A DNA stretch of 64,000 nucleotides from Pseudonocardia sp. 73-21. GTDB taxonomy: Bacteria; Actinomycetota; Actinomycetes; Mycobacteriales; Pseudonocardiaceae. Positions 38,108 through 49,717 of this stretch are shown one piece after another; position 1 is the first letter of the stretch, and each line of letters opens with the position of its first letter. The notes beneath the pieces were generated by a model. It had not been told where the DNA came from and made no database searches. It saw only the letters and a program-made list of their open reading frames with translations. The position numbers and the translations under genes were made by a program. The DNA is taken from contig NZ_MKVV01000014.1 in the NCBI RefSeq assembly GCF_001899645.1, positions 146,897-210,896 on the forward strand, in the 5' to 3' direction.

Positions 38108-39685
38108 TCAGGCGCCCGGGCGCAGCGCCCAGATGTCGCACCCGTTCGCGGCGCTCGTGCGCACCGGCTGCGCGTTGGTCGCGAGCCAGGCGGCCAGCGG
38201 GCTGCCGGCCGGCACCAGGTCCGGCTCGTAGTTGACGAAGAACTTCGCACCCTGCTGGGCGTAGCCGGCCAGGAACGACGGCTGGAGCTGGTCCGCGGCG
38301 AGGCTCCAGCCCTTCCGGTCGGCCAGGTAGAAGATCGTCGGCTCCTCGTAGTTGTTGGCCGTGCCGCGGTCGACCGCCAGGCTCGTGGTACTGACCACCA
38401 CGAGGTCACCGGGCTGCGAGACCTGGTCGAGCTGCGCCGAGCACGCCCCGTACACGCCGCTCTGGTCGCGGAAGGACGCGACGAAGACCATCGCGCTCTG
38501 GGTGAACAGCGCCAGTACCGCGACGACCGCCGCTGCGATGCGCACCGTGAGCGACACGCGGCCGCGCAGCCACGCGGCGATCCCCTCGGCGCCGATCGCG
38601 ATCAGGATCGCGGCGAACGGCAGCGAGAAGATGTGGTACTGCGGCCCCAGCTCGGAGCTGTAGCGCGCCACGGCGAAGTAGAAGACGACCAGCGCCGGGA
38701 ACCCGGCGGCCAGGATCACCGGGCCCCGGGCCTTCCACGCCAGCCAGGCCCCGAGCAGCGCCACCGGCACGCCGATGATGCCGTAGATCAGCGTGGCCTC
38801 GATCGTCACGTTGCCGGTGTAGAACAGCGACGACGTCCAGATGGCGAGGTTCCCGAACTTGCTGTCGCCGCCGGAGATCACGCCGAACGTGTTGCCGTAG
38901 GTGACGTAGAGCTCGTGGGCGTGCCACAGCCACAGCGCGGGCAGCACCAGCGACGCGAGCGCCGCGACGTAGAGGGAGGGCCGCTTGAAGCGGTCGCGCG
39001 CCGAGATCGCCAGCCAGATCAGCAGGATCAGGAAGACGTGCAGCGAGGTGGGCTTGGCCAGCGCGGCCATCGACGCCGCCGCGGCGGCCGCCACGAGGTG
39101 GACCAGGCGGTCCTGCGTCAGCCACCGCTCGAAGAACAGCAGCGTGAGCAGGTAGAAGAACAGGACGGTGACGTCCGGCATGAACGCGTTGCCGTAGGTC
39201 ATCACCGCGGGTGAGACGACGTAGGCGATGAGCGCCCAGCGGGCCGTCCGCGGCGGGACCAGCCGCTTCACCAGCGTCCAGAACACCGCGAGGCCGCCCA
39301 CCGTGAACGCCAGCGAGACCAGGCGCCCGACCCACGCGTGCTCCCCGAACACGTGGAACAGCGCCGCGGAGATCCAGGGCAGGATCTGCAGCTCGGCCTC
39401 GACGTAACCGGGGCCCGAACCACCCCAGTTGACCTGCGGGTAGAAGAGGTTCATGCCGCCCACGAAGAAGTTGTGGGCGATGGTCGCGGTGTCGGCCGGG
39501 CGCCAGATGTCACCGAGCCAGGGCATCGGGAGGAAGGCGCGGACCACCGAGAGGACGACGACGACGCCGACCACTCCCAGGGCCGCACGTCCGAGGCCGT
39601 CGCCCCGCAGGGCGGGGGCCGGGCCGCCGGGGGGCGGAACGGGCTTCTCGAGCGTGCCCGTGCCGCGGCTGTCCGTACTTGACAT
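38108..39685 (-). CDS. Membrane glycosyltransferase, PMT/ArnT-like (GT-C)
   Basis: The 525-residue protein has about 11-12 membrane helices. After helix 1 it has WLGDIWRPADTATIAHNFF and then GPGYVEAELQILPWISAALF, the acidic loop position of GT-C enzymes such as PMT and ArnT that use polyprenyl-phosphate sugars. YGNAFMPDVTVLFFYL is a typical second loop. The C-terminal soluble part of about 90 residues is unassigned. ATG at 39685 has AGGAG 8 nt upstream. It lies in a surface-polymer locus, divergent from the NRPS-like gene. Confidence 0.85.
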   Translation of the reverse strand: MSSTDSRGTGTLEKPVPPPGGPAPALRGDGLGRAALGVVGVVVVLSVVRAFLPMPWLGDIWRPADTATIAHNFFVGGMNLFYPQVNWGGSGPGYVEAELQILPWISAALFHVFGEHAWVGRLVSLAFTVGGLAVFWTLVKRLVPPRTARWALIAYVVSPAVMTYGNAFMPDVTVLFFYLLTLLFFERWLTQDRLVHLVAAAAAASMAALAKPTSLHVFLILLIWLAISARDRFKRPSLYVAALASLVLPALWLWHAHELYVTYGNTFGVISGGDSKFGNLAIWTSSLFYTGNVTIEATLIYGIIGVPVALLGAWLAWKARGPVILAAGFPALVVFYFAVARYSSELGPQYHIFSLPFAAILIAIGAEGIAAWLRGRVSLTVRIAAAVVAVLALFTQSAMVFVASFRDQSGVYGACSAQLDQVSQPGDLVVVSTTSLAVDRGTANNYEEPTIFYLADRKGWSLAADQLQPSFLAGYAQQGAKFFVNYEPDLVPAGSPLAAWLATNAQPVRTSAANGCDIWALRPGA

Positions 39686-39741
39686 CAGAGAACTCCTGCA
39701 GAGAGAAGACGGTGGGAAGGACGCGCAGAGATGCAGGACGT

Positions 39742-40167
39742 CTATGTGCGCATGATGCAGAGCAGGTGGGACGCCGGAGCCCGGGCGGTCGGCCCTCCCT
39801 CGACGGCGACGGGACGCGCCGCCCCGACGTCCGGGCGGTGGATGCCGGCCACCACGACGACCGGCAGATCGCGGGTGGTGGTGCCGCCCTGCGCCACGAC
39901 CGCCGCGGGGTGGTCGCCCCGGTGGCCGCACCCGTCGCCCGGGCCGTCGGCGTTCTGGTCCGGCGGATCGCCGACCACGGCCCCGTCGGCGAGGGCGTCG
40001 GGGGTGACGCCGAGGCCTGCGGCGGCGACGCGGCCCGCCCCGTGCGCGGAGGTGTGCTCCTCGAAGCAGCAGCACAGCGTGGCGAGGCCCACCAGCAGAC
40101 CGGCCACGACGGCCGTGACGACCACGGAGTCCGTCACGAACCGGTTCCTCCGCACAGCGGTCGCCAT
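39742..40167 (-). CDS. Hypothetical single-helix membrane protein (141 aa)
   Basis: The product starts with a basic stretch, one hydrophobic helix (SVVVTAVVAGLLVGLATLCC) and an outside region rich in Gly, Ala and His (CGHRGDHP). Third codon positions are almost wholly G or C throughout, so it is probably a real gene although no family is recognised. GGAAGG lies about 9 nt before the ATG. It precedes the GT-C gene by 57 nt on the same strand and may share its transcript. Confidence 0.6.
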   Translation of the reverse strand: MATAVRRNRFVTDSVVVTAVVAGLLVGLATLCCCFEEHTSAHGAGRVAAAGLGVTPDALADGAVVGDPPDQNADGPGDGCGHRGDHPAAVVAQGGTTTRDLPVVVVAGIHRPDVGAARPVAVEGGPTARAPASHLLCIMRT

Positions 40168-40714
40168 TCCGTGGACCTTCCCGGCCGTTTCGAGCAGTTC
40201 TCCGACATCGTGGTGCGAATTCGCCGAAGCGTCCCCCACCGCGGCTGTGGCGGGCAGCTTAGGGGACCGTCGCTGAGCCCCCGCTGAGGAACCGACGGGG
40301 CGGATCGTCCGGGGATGCCCGGACACCCGGCCCGTTCGGGAACCCGGCGCCGACTACGGGCCACGACATCCGCTGCTCCCCCTGCGGACACTCCCCGTGA
40401 CCTGCGGCCACCCGCTCTCACCCGACGGATCGGGCAGCTACCGAGCCCACCTCTCCCAGTCGGGTAACGGTTCGTGATCGGTACTCGATACGATGCCTGC
40501 GACAACTTCACAGTTCCCGCGGGATGGGAACGGCGTAGATCATCGAGACTCCCCAGTCGGTGACGTGCGGCCCACCATCGCCGGAAGATCAATGATGATC
40601 GACGGGCCCCTCCCGCGCTGCGCCACCTTTCCGCCCCCGACACGGCACGACCTGCGGCCCCGCTCCCCCACCGTGGCCCGGTTGTCCCGCCCGTAACCAG
40701 GGAGAGCCTCGAGC
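40168..40714. other. Long regulatory gap before the A-T-TE synthetase gene
   Basis: No convincing gene lies in these 547 bases. Two palindromes stand out: GTTCCC-n7-GGGAAC at 40513-40531 and GATCA-ATGA-TGATC at 40588-40602. Local composition is less GC-rich than the coding DNA. The size and palindromes suggest a regulated divergent promoter region for the two arms of the surface-polymer locus. Confidence 0.5.
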
Positions 40715-43396
40715 ATGACGATCGCCGCCACCACCTCGGAACCGCAACCACTCGTCGTCCCCGGTGAGGTGCGGTCGGTCGTCGGGAGATGGCGCCTCGT
40801 GGCCCGGGCGCTCGGCGACTCACCGGCCATCAGCTCCCCGGACGCGAGCTACACGTTCGCCCAGGTCGACGCGCTCAGCGACGCCGTGGCGGCCCGCCTG
40901 CTCGCGGCCGCGCCCGCCGACGGCACCCCCGTGGTCACCGTCCTCGACCACGGCGCCACCGGCATCGTCGGCCTGTGGTCGGTGATGAAGGCCGGTCGCA
41001 TCCTCGTGGCGCTCGACGCCCACCTGCCCGCGGAGCGGCTGCGCCAGATCGTCGACCTCGCCGGGGCCACCACGTGCGTCGCCGACGCCGACCACGCCGA
41101 TCTGGCCGCCGAGCTCGGCATCCCGAACGTCCTGCGGCTCGACGAGCTCACGGCCGACGTGGACACCACCGACCCGCTCGCGCTGGCCACCCACCGCGCC
41201 GCGCTCGCCGACGTCCCCGTCGCCGACCACGACGACATCCTCAACATCGTGTTCACGTCGGGGTCCACCGGTGTGCCCAAGGGCGTGATCACCACGCACG
41301 GCTCGGCCCTCAACGACGCCTACGCCGGCCAGACGCAGTTCGGCATCGGCACCGACGACCGCCTCACCCAGGTGCTGCCGCTGTCGTTCGCGGCCGGGTT
41401 CACGATGATGATGATGGGCCTGCTCAACGGCGCCGGGATCTGGGCCTACGACCCGCGCGACCGCGGCGTCCGGGGCCTGGAGCCGTGGATCGCCCAGAAC
41501 GGGCTCACCACCCTGCACTGCACGCCCCACCTGCTGCGCTCGCTCGTGAGCACCCTGTCGGCCGGCCAGACGCTGTCCACCGTGCGCCTCGCCGCCACCG
41601 TCGGCGAGGCCGTCTACGGCCGCGACTACGAGGCGTTGCGCCCGCACCTGCGCCCCGGCGCGTCGTTCTTCAACTGGACCGGGTCGTCCGAGGTCGGCAA
41701 CCTGTCCTGCCACGAGATCCCCTTCGGAGCCCCGGAGCAGGAGGGCGCCGTCCCGGCCGGGCGCGTCGTGCCCAACAAGGAGCTGCGCGTCCTCGACGAG
41801 AACGGCGACCCCGTCGCTCCCGGTGAGGTCGGCGAGCTGGTCGTCGTCTCGGACTTCCTGTCGGGCGGCTACTGGCGCAACCCGGAGGCGGCCGCCACCA
41901 AGTTCGGCCGCAACGACCGGGGCGAGCGGTTCTGCAAGCCCGGCGACATGGGCCGCGTCGAGGACGGTGTGCTGTCCTTCGCGGGCCGCACCGACGCCGC
42001 GGTCAAGATCCGCGGCTACCTGGTGGACCCCAGCGAGGTCGAGGCCGCCGTGCTCGACTCCGACGCCGTGAGCGAGGTGTCGGTGATGGCCGTGGTGCGG
42101 CCGCCGGCGGCGAGCTACCTGGTGGCCTACGTCGCGGCCGACACCCGCTTCCGCGCCGAGTCCCCCGCGATGATCCGCCGCCGGCTGCGCCTGCGGCTGC
42201 CCGAGTACATGGTGCCGTCGGTGATCGTGCAGGTCACGTCGCTGCCGCGCAACGAGCGCGGCAAGGTCGACCGCCAGGCGCTGCCCCCGGCCGAGCCGGC
42301 CAAGCCCACCGCCCCGCCCACCACGCAGTGGGAGATCGTGCTGTCGGACCTGTGGGGCGAGGTGCTCGGGCTCGACTCCGTCGGGCTCGACGACGACTTC
42401 ATGGAGGTCGGCGGCGACTCGCTCACCGCCGAGGAGATGTTGACGCTGGTCAACGACCGGCTCGGCATCGCGCTCGTCTCGTCCGATCTGATCGAGGCGC
42501 CCACCCTGCGCCAGTTCACCCAGCGCGTCACGCTCGGCTCGGCCTCGCTGCCCAGCCACCCCGACGTCGTCGCGCTGCGCACCGGCGGCGCCGGCACCCC
42601 GGCGTTCTGCTTCGTCGGCGGCGGCTCGCTCGCCCTGACGTTCGTGCCGATCGCGCGCCATCTCGGCGACCGCCCCGTCTACGCGTTCCAGGCCCACGGC
42701 CTCGAGCAGCGGGCCATCCCGGACAAGAGCGTCGAGGCGGCGGCCGCGCGGGCACTGCAGATGATGCGCGTGATCCAGCCCCGCGGCCCGTACGTGATGG
42801 TCGGCCACTCCTTCGGCGGCCTGGTGGCCCTGGAGGCGGCCCGGCAGCTGGAGCAGGCGGGCGAGACCGTCCAGCACGTCACGCTGCTCGACACCTACCA
42901 GCCCGGCAACTCGGTCGGTGCGCTCGCGCCGTCGGCGTCGGAGCAGCCGTCGCTCACCACCCGCCCGGCCGGCCCGCGGTCGGTGGTGCGCCGGAGTCTG
43001 AGCACCGTCGCGCGCCCGGTCAAGTCCCAGATCGAGGCCCGGCTCGTGTCCGTGCTGCCCGACGGCCTGCCCGAGCTCGAGCAGCTCGGCGACCGGGTGC
43101 GTGCGCGCCTGGCGGGCATCGTGCCGTTCTCCGGGCAGCGCCAGTTCGACGCCTTCTTCGACCACTCCGGGCTCGTCGCCCGCAAGTACGCGCTGCGCCC
43201 GCTCACCACGCCGGTGCTGCTCGTGCTGGGCGACAACAACCCCGACGGCGCCGACGCGTGGAGGCCGCTGCTCACCGGGCCCCACACGATCGTCGAGATC
43301 CAGGCCGAGCACAGCTCCCTGATGCGCGAGCCGCACGCCACCACGGTGGGCGAGCTCATCCAGGCGGAGCTCGACAAGGCACCCGGCGGGTCGTGA
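40715..43396 (+). CDS. Free-standing NRPS-like synthetase, A-T-TE architecture
   Basis: The 893-residue enzyme has an adenylation domain (about 20-515; motifs FTSGSTGVPKGV, GDMGRVEDG, GRTDAAVKIRGY, RNERGKVDRQAL), a carrier domain (about 535-600; Ser in GGDSL) and a thioesterase domain (about 625-885; nucleophile Ser in GHSFGG, His in EHSSL). There is no condensation domain. The A4 region reads PLSFAAGFTMM, so the Asp that normally binds an amino group is replaced, hinting at a non-amino carboxylate such as a keto or hydroxy acid. Compare bacterial furanone synthetases and fungal quinone synthetases of this layout. It heads a likely operon with a flippase and two GH16 genes. Confidence 0.9.
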   Translation: MTIAATTSEPQPLVVPGEVRSVVGRWRLVARALGDSPAISSPDASYTFAQVDALSDAVAARLLAAAPADGTPVVTVLDHGATGIVGLWSVMKAGRILVALDAHLPAERLRQIVDLAGATTCVADADHADLAAELGIPNVLRLDELTADVDTTDPLALATHRAALADVPVADHDDILNIVFTSGSTGVPKGVITTHGSALNDAYAGQTQFGIGTDDRLTQVLPLSFAAGFTMMMMGLLNGAGIWAYDPRDRGVRGLEPWIAQNGLTTLHCTPHLLRSLVSTLSAGQTLSTVRLAATVGEAVYGRDYEALRPHLRPGASFFNWTGSSEVGNLSCHEIPFGAPEQEGAVPAGRVVPNKELRVLDENGDPVAPGEVGELVVVSDFLSGGYWRNPEAAATKFGRNDRGERFCKPGDMGRVEDGVLSFAGRTDAAVKIRGYLVDPSEVEAAVLDSDAVSEVSVMAVVRPPAASYLVAYVAADTRFRAESPAMIRRRLRLRLPEYMVPSVIVQVTSLPRNERGKVDRQALPPAEPAKPTAPPTTQWEIVLSDLWGEVLGLDSVGLDDDFMEVGGDSLTAEEMLTLVNDRLGIALVSSDLIEAPTLRQFTQRVTLGSASLPSHPDVVALRTGGAGTPAFCFVGGGSLALTFVPIARHLGDRPVYAFQAHGLEQRAIPDKSVEAAAARALQMMRVIQPRGPYVMVGHSFGGLVALEAARQLEQAGETVQHVTLLDTYQPGNSVGALAPSASEQPSLTTRPAGPRSVVRRSLSTVARPVKSQIEARLVSVLPDGLPELEQLGDRVRARLAGIVPFSGQRQFDAFFDHSGLVARKYALRPLTTPVLLVLGDNNPDGADAWRPLLTGPHTIVEIQAEHSSLMREPHATTVGELIQAELDKAPGGS

Positions 43397-43445
43397 GATC
43401 GAGCGCGCCACGGCGACGGGTGCCCGCGCCGCGGCGGGCGAGCTG

Positions 43446-44987
43446 ATGAGCCGCCACCGCGCGGACGCCCCACCCCGACACGCACCGGCCGACCCCGAGA
43501 CCGTGGCGTTCCGGTCCGTCGGAAAGGACCCGACCGACCTCGACACCGTCGTGCTGCCCGTCGTCGCCGGCGGTGGCGGCAGCGCGATGTCCGGCCTGTT
43601 CGGTCGCGGCCTGCTCTACGCGATCGTGCCGGCGTTGCAGCTGCTGTCGGCCACGCTCGTCTCACCGGTGCTCGCTCACCTGCTCGGCCCGTCGGAGTTC
43701 GGCGACCTGGCCACCGCCATCGCCGTACACCAGCTGCTCGTGGTGCTGGCCGTCATCGGTCTCGACCAGGCCCTGGTGCAGCAACGGGCCGAGGACGGCG
43801 ACGACCACACCGCTCGCGGCCTGGTCATGGTCGGCGCCGTGCTGTCGGGCGCCGTCATGGTGGCGGTGTTCCTCACCGGCCCGCTGTGGAGCCCTCTGCT
43901 GGGCTTCGGCGGCGGCTTCACCGGCGTCGTCGTCGCGATGGTGCTGTGGACGCTGCCCGCCGCGACCAATCAGATGATCATGGGCCTGCTGATGAGCCAG
44001 GACCGCTTCCCGCGGTTCGCCGTGATCAGCATGCTGTCGGCCGTCGGCGGGCAGGTCGTCGGCATCGGGCTCGTGGTCGTGTCGGGCAGCGACTCCGCCG
44101 CGGTCTACGCGTGGGGCACCGTGATCAGCCAGTACCTCGCGCTGCTGATCGGCATCGGCTACGTCCGGCCCGCGCTGCGGGGGCTCGTGGACACCGCGGC
44201 GATCGGGCGGGCCGTGCGTCTCGGCGTTCCGCTGATGATCACGGTGCTGTTCGCGTTCGTGCTGAACGCGGGCGACCGCGTGCTCATCCAGCGCATCCTC
44301 GGCGCCGAGGAGACCGGCCGCTACCAGGTGGCCTACACCGTCGGTTACGTCGTGGTGCTCCTGATCGGCTACACCACCCAGGCCTGGACGCCGCGCATCT
44401 CCGCGATCTCGGACGTGCGCGAGCGCTGCGGGGTGATCGCGCAGTCCCGCGACGAGCTCTACAAGCTGCTCGTGCCGGTGATCCTCGGCATCACGCTCGC
44501 CTCGCCGGTGCTGCTGCGCATCGTGGCCCCCGCGAGCTTCGACCCGGAGACGCTGCTGGTGGTGGTCTACCTGGTGGCGCTCGCGGCGTTCCCCGTGGCC
44601 GCCAGCAACGGGACCGGCCGGCTGCTGGTCACCCAGCGCCGCGGCAAGCCGCTCGCGCTGTGCGCGTTCGCCGCCGCGGCGGTGAACATCGCGCTCAACG
44701 TCGTGCTGCTGCCGGTGATGGGCATCGCCGGCGCCGCGCTGGCCACCGCGATCGCGTTCGGGCTGGAGGCGCTGCTGCTGCGCCGGGTCGTCCCGCGCCT
44801 GCCCCACCTGGACCGTACGCCGCCCGTGCTACTCATCACCGTGGTGGCCGCGTGCGCGGTCGCCGGGGCGTCGTGCGCGCTGCCCCAGACGCTGTGGTGG
44901 AACGTGGCGCGCTTCGCGATCGCGCTGGCCTGCTTCCCGTGGCTGCTGGTGCGGCTGCGCGCGTCCCGTCAGGCGGCGGCCGCGTAG
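43446..44987 (+). CDS. Wzx-type lipopolysaccharide/oligosaccharide flippase
   Basis: The 513-residue protein has about 14 helices and the MOP-superfamily pattern: an N-terminal GRGLLYAIVPALQLLSATLVS, the VLAHLLGPSEFGDLATAIAV loop, and a central NAGDRVLIQRILGAEETGRY. Such flippases move lipid-linked sugar units across the membrane. The first 45 residues are a disordered cytoplasmic tail, longer than usual. Only 49 nt follow the NRPS-like gene, and 13 nt separate it from the first GH16 gene, so one transcript is likely. Confidence 0.87.
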   Translation: MSRHRADAPPRHAPADPETVAFRSVGKDPTDLDTVVLPVVAGGGGSAMSGLFGRGLLYAIVPALQLLSATLVSPVLAHLLGPSEFGDLATAIAVHQLLVVLAVIGLDQALVQQRAEDGDDHTARGLVMVGAVLSGAVMVAVFLTGPLWSPLLGFGGGFTGVVVAMVLWTLPAATNQMIMGLLMSQDRFPRFAVISMLSAVGGQVVGIGLVVVSGSDSAAVYAWGTVISQYLALLIGIGYVRPALRGLVDTAAIGRAVRLGVPLMITVLFAFVLNAGDRVLIQRILGAEETGRYQVAYTVGYVVVLLIGYTTQAWTPRISAISDVRERCGVIAQSRDELYKLLVPVILGITLASPVLLRIVAPASFDPETLLVVVYLVALAAFPVAASNGTGRLLVTQRRGKPLALCAFAAAAVNIALNVVLLPVMGIAGAALATAIAFGLEALLLRRVVPRLPHLDRTPPVLLITVVAACAVAGASCALPQTLWWNVARFAIALACFPWLLVRLRASRQAAAA

Positions 44988-45000
44988 GGAGGAGGTCGGG

Positions 45001-45801
45001 ATGCGGCTCCTCGCGGCCCTCCTCGCCCTCGCCCTCGTCGTCACCGCGTCGGACCCGGTGGCCACCGGCGCGCAGGCCGGCGCCACCATCGGGGCGGCGG
45101 GCAACTACCTCTTCGACGACGAGTTCGACGGCACCGCCGTGGACACCTCGGTCTGGAGCGTGCTCAGCCGCGGCGGCGACGCCAGCAACCACGAGGCCCA
45201 GTGCTACGTGCCGGGCAACGTGAGCGAAGGCGGCGGCAACCTGCAGATCACGTCGAAGGTCGACTCCTCCTGCCGCGGCTACCGCTACACCTCCGGCATG
45301 GTGCAGTGGACGAACGCCACGTTCACCTACGGCACGATCGAGATCCGCGCGAAGGAGTCCGGCGGGCAGGGGTCGTGGCCGGCCCAGTGGCTGCTCGGGG
45401 CGAAGTGCCAGGTCGCCAACCTCACCACGGACGAGAACGTGGGCGGCTGCGACTGGCCGAATCCCGGCTCCGACGAGATCGACATCGCCGAGTTCAAGAC
45501 GAGCGGGCCCGGTACGGTGCTGCAGAACGTGATCTCCGGCCGCAGCGGCTTCCTGACCTGCGCCGAGACGATCTCGCCCGCCGACGCGAACTGGCACGTC
45601 TACGCCCTGACCAGGACGCCGACCGCGGTCACGTGGAGCGTCGACGGCGCCACGACCTGCACCCAGCGCACCGTCGTCCCCACCGACCCGATGTTCCTGA
45701 TCATCAACAACGCGATGGGCGGCGACGGCGGCGGCCGCATCGACCCGGGCGACTTCCCGCAGACGATGCTCGTCGACTACGTCCGGGTGAAGAAGTCATA
45801 G
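45001..45801 (+). CDS. Secreted glycoside hydrolase family 16 enzyme, copy 1
   Basis: The 266-residue product has a signal peptide (about 24 residues) and a GH16 beta-jelly-roll domain. The catalytic motif DEIDIAEF places Glu159 as nucleophile, Asp161 and Glu164 as acid/base, matching the ExDxxE pattern of family 16 (beta-1,3/1,4-glucanases and relatives). GGAGGAGG lies 5-6 nt before the ATG, close behind the flippase gene. It is a paralogue of the next gene, by eye about two-thirds identical. It probably cuts a beta-glucan outside the cell. Confidence 0.9.
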   Translation: MRLLAALLALALVVTASDPVATGAQAGATIGAAGNYLFDDEFDGTAVDTSVWSVLSRGGDASNHEAQCYVPGNVSEGGGNLQITSKVDSSCRGYRYTSGMVQWTNATFTYGTIEIRAKESGGQGSWPAQWLLGAKCQVANLTTDENVGGCDWPNPGSDEIDIAEFKTSGPGTVLQNVISGRSGFLTCAETISPADANWHVYALTRTPTAVTWSVDGATTCTQRTVVPTDPMFLIINNAMGGDGGGRIDPGDFPQTMLVDYVRVKKS

Positions 45802-45930
45802 CGCGACGGCGAGTATGAGCAGGTCACACCCACATGCACCCCATGAGCCCCATCCGTGTCATTGCTGCGCCCGAATCGCTGACATAGCGTCACGGAGCCC
45901 GCACCGAATGCAGCACGAGGGGAAATTCCA

Positions 45931-46758
45931 GTGCGCTTCTCTCCGTTCGCCCGCCGTCTCGCCCAACTGGCCGTCGCGGGTTCCGTGCTGCTCGCCGTGA
46001 CCGCCGCACCGGCACTGGCCGACACCCCCACGAGCGAGCCCGCCCCGACCGACCTGTCGGGCTACCTGTTCGACGACGAGTTCAACGACACCACCGTGGA
46101 CCCGGCGGCCTGGGGCATCCTCGACCGCGGCGGCGACGCCAGCAACGCCGAGGACCAGTGCTACAAGCCCGGGAACGTCGCCGAGAAGGGCGGCTTCCTC
46201 CAGATCACCTCGAAGGTCGACTCGTCCTGCAAGGGCTACAAGTACACCTCCGGCATGGTGCAGTGGAAGAAGTTCAACTTCACCTCGGGCACGATCGAGA
46301 TCCGCGCCAAGCAGTCGGGCGGCAAGGGCTCGTGGCCGGCGCAGTGGCTGCTCGGCTCCGACTGCCAGGCCGCCAACCTCACCACCGAGGAGAACTCCTA
46401 CGGCTGCAACTGGCCCAAGCCCGGCTCCGACGAGATCGACATCGCCGAGTTCAAGACGAGTGGCCCGTCGTCGGTGTGGCAGAACGTCGTCTCCGGTGAC
46501 AGCGGCTTCAAGACCTGCCGGCCCGACGTGTCGGCGTCCAACGACAACTTCCACGTCTACTCGCTGACCTGGCACGCGAAGTCGCTCGTGTGGAAGGTCG
46601 ACGGCAGGACCACCTGCACCCAGACCGACGTGGTACCCACGCAGGCTATGTTCCTGATCATGAACAACGCGATGGGCGGGGGCGGTGGCGGGCAGATCGA
46701 CCCCGCCGACTTCCCGCAGACGATGCTCGTCGACTACGTCCGCGTGAAGAAGATCTAG
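45931..46758 (+). CDS. Secreted glycoside hydrolase family 16 enzyme, copy 2
   Basis: The 275-residue paralogue of the previous gene has its own signal peptide, ending near ALA at about residue 30, and the same catalytic motif DEIDIAEF (Glu168, Asp170, Glu173). The conserved Cys residues in SSCKGY and GCNWPK are shared with copy 1. GTG at 45931 follows AGGGG by 8 nt. A 129-nt gap, perhaps with its own promoter, separates it from copy 1. Differences are concentrated in surface loops, suggesting divergent substrate range or redundancy. Confidence 0.9.
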   Translation: MRFSPFARRLAQLAVAGSVLLAVTAAPALADTPTSEPAPTDLSGYLFDDEFNDTTVDPAAWGILDRGGDASNAEDQCYKPGNVAEKGGFLQITSKVDSSCKGYKYTSGMVQWKKFNFTSGTIEIRAKQSGGKGSWPAQWLLGSDCQAANLTTEENSYGCNWPKPGSDEIDIAEFKTSGPSSVWQNVVSGDSGFKTCRPDVSASNDNFHVYSLTWHAKSLVWKVDGRTTCTQTDVVPTQAMFLIMNNAMGGGGGGQIDPADFPQTMLVDYVRVKKI

Positions 46759-47471
46759 TGGCGCCGGGGCCGGTCGCACTGGTCGGGAGCGGCGAGTACC
46801 TGCCGGTGATGGCGGGCGTCGAGGGCGCCCTCCTCATCGGCCGCCCCCCGCGCTACGTCCAGATCCCCACGGCGGCCACGCTCGAGAGCCGGGCGTCGGT
46901 CGACCGGTGGGTGGCCCTGGGCGTCGAGCAGGCCGCCCGGCTCGGCGTGGAGGCCGTACCGGTGGTCGTCCGCAACCGCGACGACGCCGACGACCCCGCG
47001 CTCGCCGCCCTCGTCGAGGGGGCCGGGCTCGTCTACCTCTCCGGCGGCAGCCCCGTCCACTGCGCGTCGACGCTGCGCGGCACCGCCGTCTGGGACGCGG
47101 TGCTCGCGGCCTGGCGCGGCGGTGCGGCGCTCGCCGGGTGCAGCGCCGGGGCGATGTCGCTGACGTCGTGGGTGCCCGACCTGCGGCACCCGTCGCGATC
47201 CGCCGACCCCGGCCTCGGGATCGTGCCGGAGGTCCGGGTGATCCCCCACTTCGACAGGTTCGCCGGCTGGGTGCCCGACATCATCACCCGCTACCTGACG
47301 CGTGCACCCGAGGGCACCGCGGTGGTGGGCGTCGACGAGGACACGGCCGTGGTCTGGGACGGGACCAGCTGGACCGTACGTGGCCGGCAGTCCGCGTGGC
47401 TGCTGAGCCGGGCCGGGCGCGTGGGCCACGCCGACGGCGAGACCGTGGAGATGCCCGGCCCGATCCTGTAG
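46758..47471 (+). CDS. Peptidase S51/cyanophycinase-like Ser hydrolase
   Basis: The 237-residue protein has the class I glutamine amidotransferase-like fold of peptidase family S51: VALVGSGEYLPVM at the start, the nucleophile Ser in AGCSAGAMSLTSW, and the His in VIPHFDRFAGW. S51 members cleave Asp dipeptides or cyanophycin. No signal peptide is seen. Its GTG overlaps the stop of GH16 copy 2 (TAGTG), so it is co-translated and belongs to the same locus. Its substrate there is unknown. Confidence 0.82.
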   Translation: MAPGPVALVGSGEYLPVMAGVEGALLIGRPPRYVQIPTAATLESRASVDRWVALGVEQAARLGVEAVPVVVRNRDDADDPALAALVEGAGLVYLSGGSPVHCASTLRGTAVWDAVLAAWRGGAALAGCSAGAMSLTSWVPDLRHPSRSADPGLGIVPEVRVIPHFDRFAGWVPDIITRYLTRAPEGTAVVGVDEDTAVVWDGTSWTVRGRQSAWLLSRAGRVGHADGETVEMPGPIL

Positions 47472-47496: not shown

Positions 47497-48531
47497 ATGC
47501 ACATCGGCATCGACAGCTTCGTCTCGACCGTGACCGACCCGGACACGGGCCGCGTGGTGAGCCCGGAGGACCGCGTCGCGGACCTGCTGGAGGAGGTGGA
47601 GCGCGCCGACCAGGTGGGGCTCGACTCGTTCGGCATCGGCGAGCACCACCGTCGCGAGTACTACGACTCGGCGCCGTCGATCCTGCTGGCCGCGGCGGCC
47701 GCGCGCACCAGCCGCATCCGGCTCAACAGCGCCGTCACCGTGCTCAGCGCCGACGACCCGGTTCGGGTGTTCCAGCAGTTCGCCACGCTGGACCTCGTCT
47801 CGCGCGGGCGCGTCGAGATGGTCGTCGGACGCGGGTCGTTCACCGAGGCGTTCCCGCTGTTCGGGCTGGCCCTGGAGGACTACGACTCGCTGTTCGCCGA
47901 GAAGCTCGACCTGCTGCTGCAGATCCGCGACTCCACCGCCGTGCACTGGTCGGGCAAGCACCGCGCCCCGCTGACCGGGCAGGAGGTCTACCCCCGCCCA
48001 CTGCAGGAGCAGCTGCCGATCTGGCTCGGCGTGGGCGGCACGCCGGAGTCGTTCGTGCGTGCGGGCGTGCTCGGACTGCCGCTGATGGTCGCGATCATCG
48101 GCGGCGAGCCGCGCCGGTTCAGGCCGCTGATCGACCTCTACCGGGAGGCCGGCAAGCGCGCCGGCCACTCCCCCGGGCAGCTCAAGGTGGGCCTGCACTG
48201 CTTCGGCTTCGTCGGCGACACCGACCGGCAGGCAGCCGACGACTTCTACCCCGGCTGGGCGGAGCAGTTCACGAAGATCGGCCGCGAGCGCGGCTTCCCC
48301 CCGCCCAACCGGATGCAGTTCGACGCCACGACGGGCCCGACCGGCGCCTACTTCATCGGCGCCCCGGAGACGGTCGCGGCGAAGATCGTCGCGGTCTCCG
48401 AGGCGCTGGACGGCATCGACCGGTTCTCCCTGCAGATGACGAACATGCGCCTGGCGCACCACAACCTGCTGCACGGCATCGAACTGCTCGGCACCGAGGT
48501 GGCCCCGGCGGTCCGCGTCAGCGTCGGATAG
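47497..48531 (+). CDS. LLM-class flavin-dependent oxidoreductase
   Basis: The 344-residue protein has the TIM-barrel luciferase fold. Motifs are GLDSFGIGEHHRREYYDSAP, SAVTVLSADDPVRVFQQFAT and LPIWLGVGGTPES, as in bacterial luciferase-like, FMN-dependent monooxygenases. The Cys, Arg and the EHH motif fit the family's flavin site. It is expressed from a leaderless promoter with a palindrome upstream. It converges on the mftD-like gene with a 14-nt overlap. Confidence 0.88.
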   Translation: MHIGIDSFVSTVTDPDTGRVVSPEDRVADLLEEVERADQVGLDSFGIGEHHRREYYDSAPSILLAAAAARTSRIRLNSAVTVLSADDPVRVFQQFATLDLVSRGRVEMVVGRGSFTEAFPLFGLALEDYDSLFAEKLDLLLQIRDSTAVHWSGKHRAPLTGQEVYPRPLQEQLPIWLGVGGTPESFVRAGVLGLPLMVAIIGGEPRRFRPLIDLYREAGKRAGHSPGQLKVGLHCFGFVGDTDRQAADDFYPGWAEQFTKIGRERGFPPPNRMQFDATTGPTGAYFIGAPETVAAKIVAVSEALDGIDRFSLQMTNMRLAHHNLLHGIELLGTEVAPAVRVSVG

Positions 48532-49717
48532 CGCTCGCCTCGGCCCGGATCCCCAGGTCGCGCCGGAACCCCGGCGGCACCACGACGTCCTCCGGGGAGA
48601 GGTCCTGCACCGACGAGTGGCCCAGGCCGAGCACGGCGGAGTCGATGCCGCCGCGCAGGATGTCGAGCACGTTCTCGACGCCGGCCTGGCCACCGGCCGC
48701 GAGACCCCAGAGGTAGGCGCGGCCGATCAGCACCGCCTTCGCCCCCAGCGACAGGGCCTTCACCACGTCGCTGCCCCGGCGGATCCCGCCGTCGAGGAGC
48801 ACCTCGACCTGCTCCCCCACGGCCTCGGCCACGGCGGGCAGCACCCGGATCGTGGCCGGGGTGCCGTCGAGGTTGTTGCCGCCGTGGTTGGACACCGAGA
48901 TGGCCGTGACGCCCGCGTCGACGGCGCGCCGGGCGTCGTCGACCCGGGTGATGCCCTTGAGCATGAACGGCCCGCCCCACTGCTCGCGCAGCCACGCGAC
49001 GTCGTCCCAGGTCGGGAGCGGCGTGCCCATCCACTCGCCGTACGCGCCGAAGAACGTGGGCGCGGTGCCGCCGGGCGGGGTGAGGTTGGGCGTGGTCAGG
49101 TCGGGGATCTTCCCGGCCTTGGCGAAGTCCAGCAGCCAGCCCGGCCGCAGCGCGCACTCCGGCCCGAACTTCAGCGCCGCCTTGAGGTCGACCTTCTCCG
49201 GGATGGCCGGGCTGCCCCAGTCGCGCCCGTTGGAGAACGACCAGTCCAGCGTCATGATCAGCCCGACCGCGCCGGCCTTGCGGGCGCGCTCCATGCGCTG
49301 CACGAGGACGTCTCGGGTGCCGACCCAGTACATCTGGAAGAACGTCTGGGGGTTGGCCGCCGCCACCTCCTCGATCGACTTGCTCGCGAACGAGCTCAGC
49401 CCCATCGGGATCCCGCGCGCCGCCGCCGCCCGCGCCACCGCCACCTCGCCGTCGGGGTGCACGGCCTGCACGCCCGTCGGGGAGATGAGAACCGGCATCG
49501 AGGCGGGCTGCCCCATCACGGTGGTGGCCAGGTCGCGGGTGCCCGACAGCCCGGCGACGTGGGGTGCGAAGCCCAGCTCCCCGAACGCCGCGATGTTGTC
49601 GTCGATGGTCAGGCCCCGTTCGGACCCGGCCACGAGGGCCCCGTACACCGACTTGGGCAGCCGCTTCTTCGCGCGCCGCTGCGCCTCCGCCACCGTCTCG
49701 AACCAACCGCCCGCCAT
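48518..49717 (-). CDS. mftD: MftD-like FMN-dependent alpha-hydroxy-acid dehydrogenase family enzyme
   Basis: The 399-residue protein has the FMN-dependent alpha-hydroxy-acid oxidase fold. Its wording is that of mycofactocin-system MftD: WFETVAEAQRRAKKRLPKSV, ELGFAPHV, SFASKSIEEVAAANP, ISVSNHGGNNLDGTP and GVENVLDILRGGIDSA. MftD oxidatively deaminates a precursor to pre-mycofactocin. The catalytic His-Arg pair (NHGGNN, GGIRRG) is present. A strong GAGGAGG precedes the ATG. No mftA, mftB, mftC, mftE or mftF is adjacent, which is unusual, so a paralogue with another role is possible. Confidence 0.82.
   Translation of the reverse strand: MAGGWFETVAEAQRRAKKRLPKSVYGALVAGSERGLTIDDNIAAFGELGFAPHVAGLSGTRDLATTVMGQPASMPVLISPTGVQAVHPDGEVAVARAAAARGIPMGLSSFASKSIEEVAAANPQTFFQMYWVGTRDVLVQRMERARKAGAVGLIMTLDWSFSNGRDWGSPAIPEKVDLKAALKFGPECALRPGWLLDFAKAGKIPDLTTPNLTPPGGTAPTFFGAYGEWMGTPLPTWDDVAWLREQWGGPFMLKGITRVDDARRAVDAGVTAISVSNHGGNNLDGTPATIRVLPAVAEAVGEQVEVLLDGGIRRGSDVVKALSLGAKAVLIGRAYLWGLAAGGQAGVENVLDILRGGIDSAVLGLGHSSVQDLSPEDVVVPPGFRRDLGIRAEASAIRR

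Follow-up and report, generated by a model that had tools for sequence, protein, structure and literature searches.

The stretch analysed here, referred to as the window, comprises 64,000 nt of contig NZ_MKVV01000014.1 from Pseudonocardia sp. 73-21 (coded here as genome G000, contig C14). It contains a gene for an enzyme resembling nonribosomal peptide synthetases (NRPS-like) with adenylation (A), carrier (T) and thioesterase (TE) domains, followed in operon-like order by genes for a Wzx-type flippase and two glycoside hydrolases of family GH16. The genomic linkage of such A-T-TE genes with flippase and GH16 genes is well supported by our survey of related genomes. We propose, as an evenly poised reading, that the locus encodes a module which attaches an aryl acid to a glycan and exports the product. 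Open reading frames and Pfam matches confirmed the positions, spacings and families that a first-pass annotation had given for the following features:

38108-39685, minus strand: GT-C glycosyltransferase-like membrane protein, 525 aa, a neighbour and not core (PMT_2, 65.7 bits)
39742-40167, minus strand: small protein with one transmembrane segment, 141 aa, a neighbour (no Pfam family; 38% identical relative in locus L015)
40168-40714: gap of 547 nt between the divergent arms
40715-43396, plus strand: A-T-TE enzyme, 893 aa, proposed to load and transfer an aryl acid (Pfam AMP-binding 194.6, PP-binding 48.5, Thioesterase 85.6 bits)
43446-44987, plus strand: Wzx-type flippase, 513 aa, 49 nt after the A-T-TE gene (PF01943 83.4, PF13440 79.9 bits)
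45001-45801, plus strand: GH16a, secreted beta-glucanase-like protein, 266 aa, 13 nt after the flippase gene (PF00722, 45.6 bits)
45931-46758, plus strand: GH16b, secreted beta-glucanase-like protein, 275 aa, 129 nt after GH16a (PF00722, 50 bits)
46758-47471, plus strand: S51-type peptidase, overlapping GH16b by TAGTG (PF03575, 50.7 bits, scored on a longer frame that starts at 46590)

The A-T-TE enzyme carries its three domains in the order typical of its NRPS-like class and keeps their catalytic residues. In an alignment, the A10 Lys, the carrier Ser and the Ser and His of the TE domain are present, and Ala occupies the position of Asp235, the residue that PMC11253843 describes as holding the amino group of alpha-amino acids. 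The window enzyme hence falls outside the alpha-amino-acid type of A domain. Asp235 is missing in 56 of 59 family members; the A10 Lys was found in 58, the TE Ser in 54 and the carrier Ser in all of them. The pocket and the A5 region align unlike those of EntE, which sets the enzyme apart from the siderophore aryl-acid A domains of the EntE/DhbE lineage as well. The type was hence assigned by neighbours and not by that lineage: judging from the missing Asp235 and the aromatic-acid genes beside relatives, the A domain looks to be of the aryl-acid type, which makes an aromatic acid the most likely acyl group. AlphaFold models were of low confidence and unusable, with a mean pLDDT of 56.9 for the A-T-TE enzyme (4 sequences) and 38.4 for the flippase (2 sequences). 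Elsewhere in the family, members of 630-660 aa in L238, L239, L240, L241 and L252 align without a TE domain, so A-T forms exist, and in L223, L225, L235 and L236 a protein of about 970 aa with a weak A-T-TE match is encoded upstream on the opposite strand.

Three kinds of aromatic-acid genes adjoin family members, namely those for salicylate synthase, for 3-amino-5-hydroxybenzoate (AHBA) synthase and for GriI/GriH/PobA-like proteins. The first kind occurs in the window genome itself, where a second A-T-TE gene (70% identity) on contig C60 forms an operon of salicylate synthase, A-T-TE and cupin genes with 4-nt overlaps. The synthase matches TIGR03494 with 418 bits (cut-off 325), and the cupin is related to gentisate 1,2-dioxygenase at 80 bits, below the cut-off of 442. 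Around this paralogue lie genes for a GH16 enzyme, two GH6 enzymes, a GlxA-type oxidase, glycosyltransferases and a PF13440 flippase. About 12 kb from it, a glycosyltransferase of the cellulose-synthase kind, a GlxA-type copper oxidase and a GH6 enzyme are encoded in a row (L066:12927 to L011:2796), an arrangement that resembles the cslA-glxA-GH6 locus of Streptomyces.

AHBA synthase is encoded in five of the seven loci of one Frankiaceae clade, the contigs of the other two ending too early, and scores 567 bits to 1b9h, the next non-AHBA entry reaching 186. These loci also hold relatives of 3-dehydroquinate (DHQ) synthase, shikimate dehydrogenase and ROK kinase, all under their NCBIfam cut-offs, together with an ABC exporter, and some further neighbours were recognised by eye alone. 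In L231 and L248, the A-T-TE gene is accompanied by genes for a DeoC-type aldolase, a DHQ-synthase-II protein and a 4-hydroxybenzoate-3-monooxygenase-like protein. Genes of this BagB/BagC kind are reported in PMC6692506 to form 3-amino-4-hydroxybenzoate. Seven of ten pocket residues of the window enzyme are identical to the AHBA-clade enzymes and three to its own C60 paralogue, with two of the ten positions unsurely aligned; overall identity is 40% and 70%, respectively. 3-Amino-5-hydroxybenzoate was considered as the window substrate and rejected because AHBA synthase is absent from the window genome.

A flavin mononucleotide (FMN) dehydrogenase gene adjoins the A-T-TE gene in six Frankiaceae loci; in L156-L161 it lies directly downstream of enzymes with a different pocket, which probably have another function. 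The protein encoded at 48518-49717 in the window looked like a shared partner of this kind. This was rejected: the window gene, on the minus strand, encodes the pre-mycofactocin synthase MftD (TIGR03966, 719 bits, cut-off 471), and its product is just 36-37% identical to the Frankiaceae FMN dehydrogenases over most of its length, with 54% identity to one of them over 138 residues.

The window Wzx, for which 43503 is an alternative start, is placed in the Wzx/PST flippase family by PF01943 and PF13440, both over cut-off. Relatives with 47-49% identity lie beside the A-T-TE gene in L216, L217 and L220. The coupling extends to fusion in one family, in which a flippase-like membrane domain and the A-T-TE form a single frame of 1244-1297 aa (L229, L231, L242 and L243); the same fusions appear as unbroken frames of 1294-1401 aa in the genome search. 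By hydropathy, the membrane part has about 12 segments in the two fusions examined, and that of L229 is 34-39% identical to standalone proteins, one beside the A-T-TE gene in L248 and two on C60. A profile comparison joined the fused-domain group to the window-type Wzx group with 94%, an E value of 1.4e-7 and 348 columns. A smaller comparison, of the four fused domains alone with the window Wzx group, gave nothing (0.5%), and two flippase alignments, searched as profiles against solved structures, returned no usable match. Both ends of a Wzx protein are cytoplasmic, and the A-T-TE of the fusions should thus face the cytoplasm, where it would meet ATP and the nascent lipid-linked glycan. Close operons occur as well: in L163, esterase, A-T-TE and GT2 glycosyltransferase genes follow each other with a 4-nt overlap at each junction; in L219, GT4, membrane protein, GT4, GT4 and A-T-TE genes are arranged with overlaps, the membrane protein not being confirmed as a flippase; and in L250, the A-T-TE gene precedes a weak GT14 and a flippase-like gene.

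GH16a and GH16b each feature one N-terminal hydrophobic segment and an EIDIAE motif, and both combine PF00722 with the E-x-D-x-x-E pattern of the family. For GH16b, the top matches among solved structures are laminarinases and endo-1,3-beta-glucanases. An extra copy of the window GH16 type (61%) with an internal TGA stop lies at G000:C29:100118-100585.

A five-member profile found the A-T-TE in 27 of 394 genomes of the class at an E value of 1e-170 (38 matches) and in 35 of 397 genomes of the order at 1e-130 (45 matches, with rows shared with the class search). Our survey comprised 61 loci, some with flanks cut by contig ends, which were annotated with home-made profiles, and neighbours were counted within 8 kb. 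It omits several class-search matches and G067 from the order search, and does not count second copies inside L220, L222 and L226 separately. L230 and L245, for which the gene finder gave no A-T-TE, were kept among the 61, and the tree has 59 rows. Flippase-like genes occurred in 18 loci, GH16 genes in 17, both in 12 and glycosyltransferase genes in 28. The 43 loci outside the Frankiaceae account for the same 18, 17 and 12, with at least one of the two in 23; beyond Pseudonocardia, this holds for 20 of 40 non-Frankiaceae loci. All three gene types recur beside the A-T-TE in five family-level groups.

The same models were run on 13 matched control stretches (248 kb, drawn from ten of the same genomes) and on 20 Pseudonocardia stretches around the thiolase gene (367 kb). 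None of the 33 stretches contained a GH16, flippase or glycosyltransferase match, versus 26, 21 and 50 in 670 kb beside the A-T-TE. For loci with either a flippase-like or a GH16 gene, Fisher's test gave p = 6e-8 against all controls, 3e-4 against the 13 matched ones and, without Pseudonocardia loci, 7e-4 against the matched ones. Since loci of one family are related, all p values of the survey are too small. The GH16, flippase and glycosyltransferase models were partly self-seeded, 11 of 26 GH16 and 6 of 21 flippase matches being seeds; the 15 GH16 matches outside the seed set remain in excess over the controls (p = 7e-5 with 615 kb as reference, 0.009 with the matched 248 kb). In a Pfam check of 47 proteins, PF00722 was found in 26 of 26 GH16 calls, PF01943 in 12 of 17 unfused flippase calls and PF00535 in 4 of 4 GT2 calls. 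The flippase call in L219 was dropped as a self-hit lacking Pfam or profile support, which lowered the flippase count from 19 to 18 and the count of either gene from 24 to 23 of 43; tree labels and control comparison still include it. Two glycosyltransferase calls adjoining the A-T-TE have weak scores, 36 bits in L218 and 31 bits in L250, and a weak polysaccharide-pyruvyl-transferase match over 38 profile positions, beside the first Nakamurella copy, was set aside. On the tree of 59 members, the flippase label changes 11 times and the GH16 label 8 times, and both were thus gained or lost many times.

An absence of co-occurrence in relatives had been fixed beforehand as the outcome that would overturn the grouping; instead, the genes co-occur both in the genus and in further families, where fusions and operons with overlapping genes are seen. 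For this reason an acylated surface glycan, as the first-pass annotation had suggested, stays the best reading, although that annotation did not propose an aromatic acyl group. What did not hold is the place of the S51 peptidase and the divergent GT-C protein in a conserved core. A BLAST comparison at E 1e-4 gave the peptidase no relative in any other A-T-TE locus that was examined, and it probably stands outside the module. The GT-C protein was rejected as a core partner, as it occurs in 11 of 62 Pseudonocardia genomes and, with a two-seed model, not beside the A-T-TE outside the genus. The gap of 547 nt is real; its conservation as a regulatory region is unsupported, since it aligns with its nearest relative L015 just over about the last 20 nt into the gene and over a 21-nt piece (E 0.03). 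The small one-segment protein contains a CCC run, and its end is conserved, reading HLLCIMRT here and HLLCVMRT in L015.

Within Pseudonocardia, close A-T-TE relatives (at least 70%) occur in two of 62 genomes, G000 with two copies and G191. Some A-T-TE match at E 1e-60 was found in 16 of the 62, the other 14 at no more than 46% identity. The window-type Wzx (at least 76%) and the window GH16 type (at least 61%) occur in the same two genomes, with 32% matches to the Wzx in two further ones. Among 150 genomes of the window's family, a search at E 1e-100 returned the window genome alone, and plasmids gave no A-T-TE relative at E 1e-80. In L015, the locus of G191, A-T-TE and Wzx genes are adjacent and are followed by a two-component pair and then by one GH16 gene at the contig end. 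G191 lacks salicylate synthase. The thiolase and luciferase-like genes that flank the block in the window lie about 2 kb apart without it in two other genomes, which fits a block that was gained or lost.

In the reading that we prefer, the A domain would adenylate a hydroxy- or amino-hydroxybenzoate, a substrate class suggested by the absent Asp235 and the neighbours of relatives. The aryl group would then be loaded onto the T domain, whose motif is present, and the TE domain might pass it in the cytoplasm, before or during flipping, to the putative acceptor, a lipid-linked sugar or repeat unit that offers a hydroxyl or amine. The Wzx-type flippase, as its family and genomic coupling suggest, would move the decorated lipid-linked glycan outwards. 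Outside, the GH16 enzymes, with their family motif and signal-like N-termini, could trim or remodel a beta-glucan-like chain. Generalizing this to recurrent aryl-decorated surface glycans of Actinomycetes is more tentative and in our view falls somewhat short of an even chance: the A-T-TE would attach amino- or hydroxybenzoates to lipid-linked glycans right at the flippase, with which it is fused in one family, and so provide envelopes with metal-binding or oxidatively cross-linkable phenolic groups.

Several observations weigh against such a module. Neither a flippase-like nor a GH16 gene lies within 8 kb in all 18 Frankiaceae loci and in 20 of the 43 others, and by a sign test the two labels do not change together on the tree to a significant degree. 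The fused membrane domain has no Pfam match and thus fails the PF01943/PF13440 definition, and L015 does not share the 13-nt junction of Wzx and GH16. A scan of ten window proteins revealed neither a polymerase nor an initiating sugar transferase, although contig C60 encodes a sugar transferase, and no aromatic-acid gene was recognised among the scanned window neighbours. AHBA synthase is missing from G191 as from the window genome and was present in one of 62 Pseudonocardia genomes. The C60 paralogue has Arg in place of the A10 Lys, which puts its activity in doubt.

The main rival to a decorated glycan is that the product of the A-T-TE is a free small molecule, such as an aryl ester, a depside or a chelator, which the flippase-type protein exports, while the glycan genes merely share variable regions. 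The Frankiaceae members with AHBA synthase and an ABC exporter, the salicylate operon of C60 and the family with an FMN dehydrogenase next door would all suit such a product. However, GH16, flippase-like and glycosyltransferase genes recur across five family-level groups and the controls are empty; moreover, GH16 enzymes act on polymers and not on small aryl esters. We hence consider this rather unlikely. With still lower probability, the A-T-TE might acylate a single lipid-linked sugar or short glycoside, yielding a glycolipid or glycosylated small molecule, with the GH16 enzymes serving a separate matrix glucan. This would agree with the direct coupling to glycosyltransferases in L163 and with several loci that have glycosyltransferase or flippase-like genes without GH16, but not with the GH16 genes in 17 of the 43 loci outside the Frankiaceae.

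It is very improbable that inheritance alone keeps the window genes side by side and that they do no joint work. By GltX, too, no genome is nearer than G191 (89% vs 88% for the next), and its synteny with the window may thus be a single inheritance; the Wzx-GH16 junction is, besides, not conserved. The same gene types nevertheless recur around the A-T-TE outside the genus, with fusions. A quinone or furanone synthetase that condenses two aryl-pyruvates like fungal A-T-TE enzymes is scarcely credible, as the pathways beside relatives make benzoates, despite the identical domain order and the missing Asp235.

If the glycan reading is true, aromatic-acid decoration by a flippase-coupled NRPS-like enzyme would be a new bacterial envelope chemistry that ties secondary-metabolite enzymes to glycan export. 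It would also relabel an orphan NRPS-like gene family whose members would pass for small-molecule clusters in genome mining. Iron is bound by aminophenols and salicylate, and oxidised aminophenols cross-link; such glycans could hence matter for iron supply and desiccation. The first-pass annotation knew no described system with this gene set, and full-text searches of an open-access library without most subscription papers gave us no description of an aryl A-T-TE that is combined with a flippase and GH16 enzymes.

Surface glycans carry acetyl, pyruvyl, succinyl and amino-acid groups. In Dlt and Alm systems, carrier and acyltransferase are separate proteins, and we know of no flippase fusion for either. 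The window differs from the Dlt type in that the carrier lies inside the A-T-TE protein and no such membrane acyltransferase is among the ten proteins scanned. The likeness is that an adenylation enzyme works with a carrier to supply the acyl group of a surface polymer, teichoic acid for Dlt and lipid A for Alm; PMC11253843 names D-alanine for DltA and glycine for AlmE, amino acids in contrast to the aryl acid proposed here. For bagremycin and ferroverdin, PMC6692506 describes a GriI/GriH-type pair that makes 3-amino-4-hydroxybenzoate and an adenylating enzyme (BagE/FevW) proposed to esterify it. The product there is, however, a free small molecule, and the paper describes FevW as phenylacetate-CoA-ligase-like and not as an A-T-TE. 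Fungal NRPS-like enzymes such as AlfA, which according to PMC12105029 forms polyporic acid from phenylpyruvate, belong to the same domain class, in a system without glycan genes. Enzymes of the AlfA type share the A-T-TE domain order. Wzx-dependent exopolysaccharide export with ExoK or EglC likewise combines a PF01943 flippase with GH16 enzymes related to the window ones, although these score far below the ExoK and EglC cut-offs and, to our knowledge, an NRPS-like partner is not part of such systems. The repeated pairing of A-T-TE and flippase suggests an undescribed way of putting aromatic groups on surface sugars.

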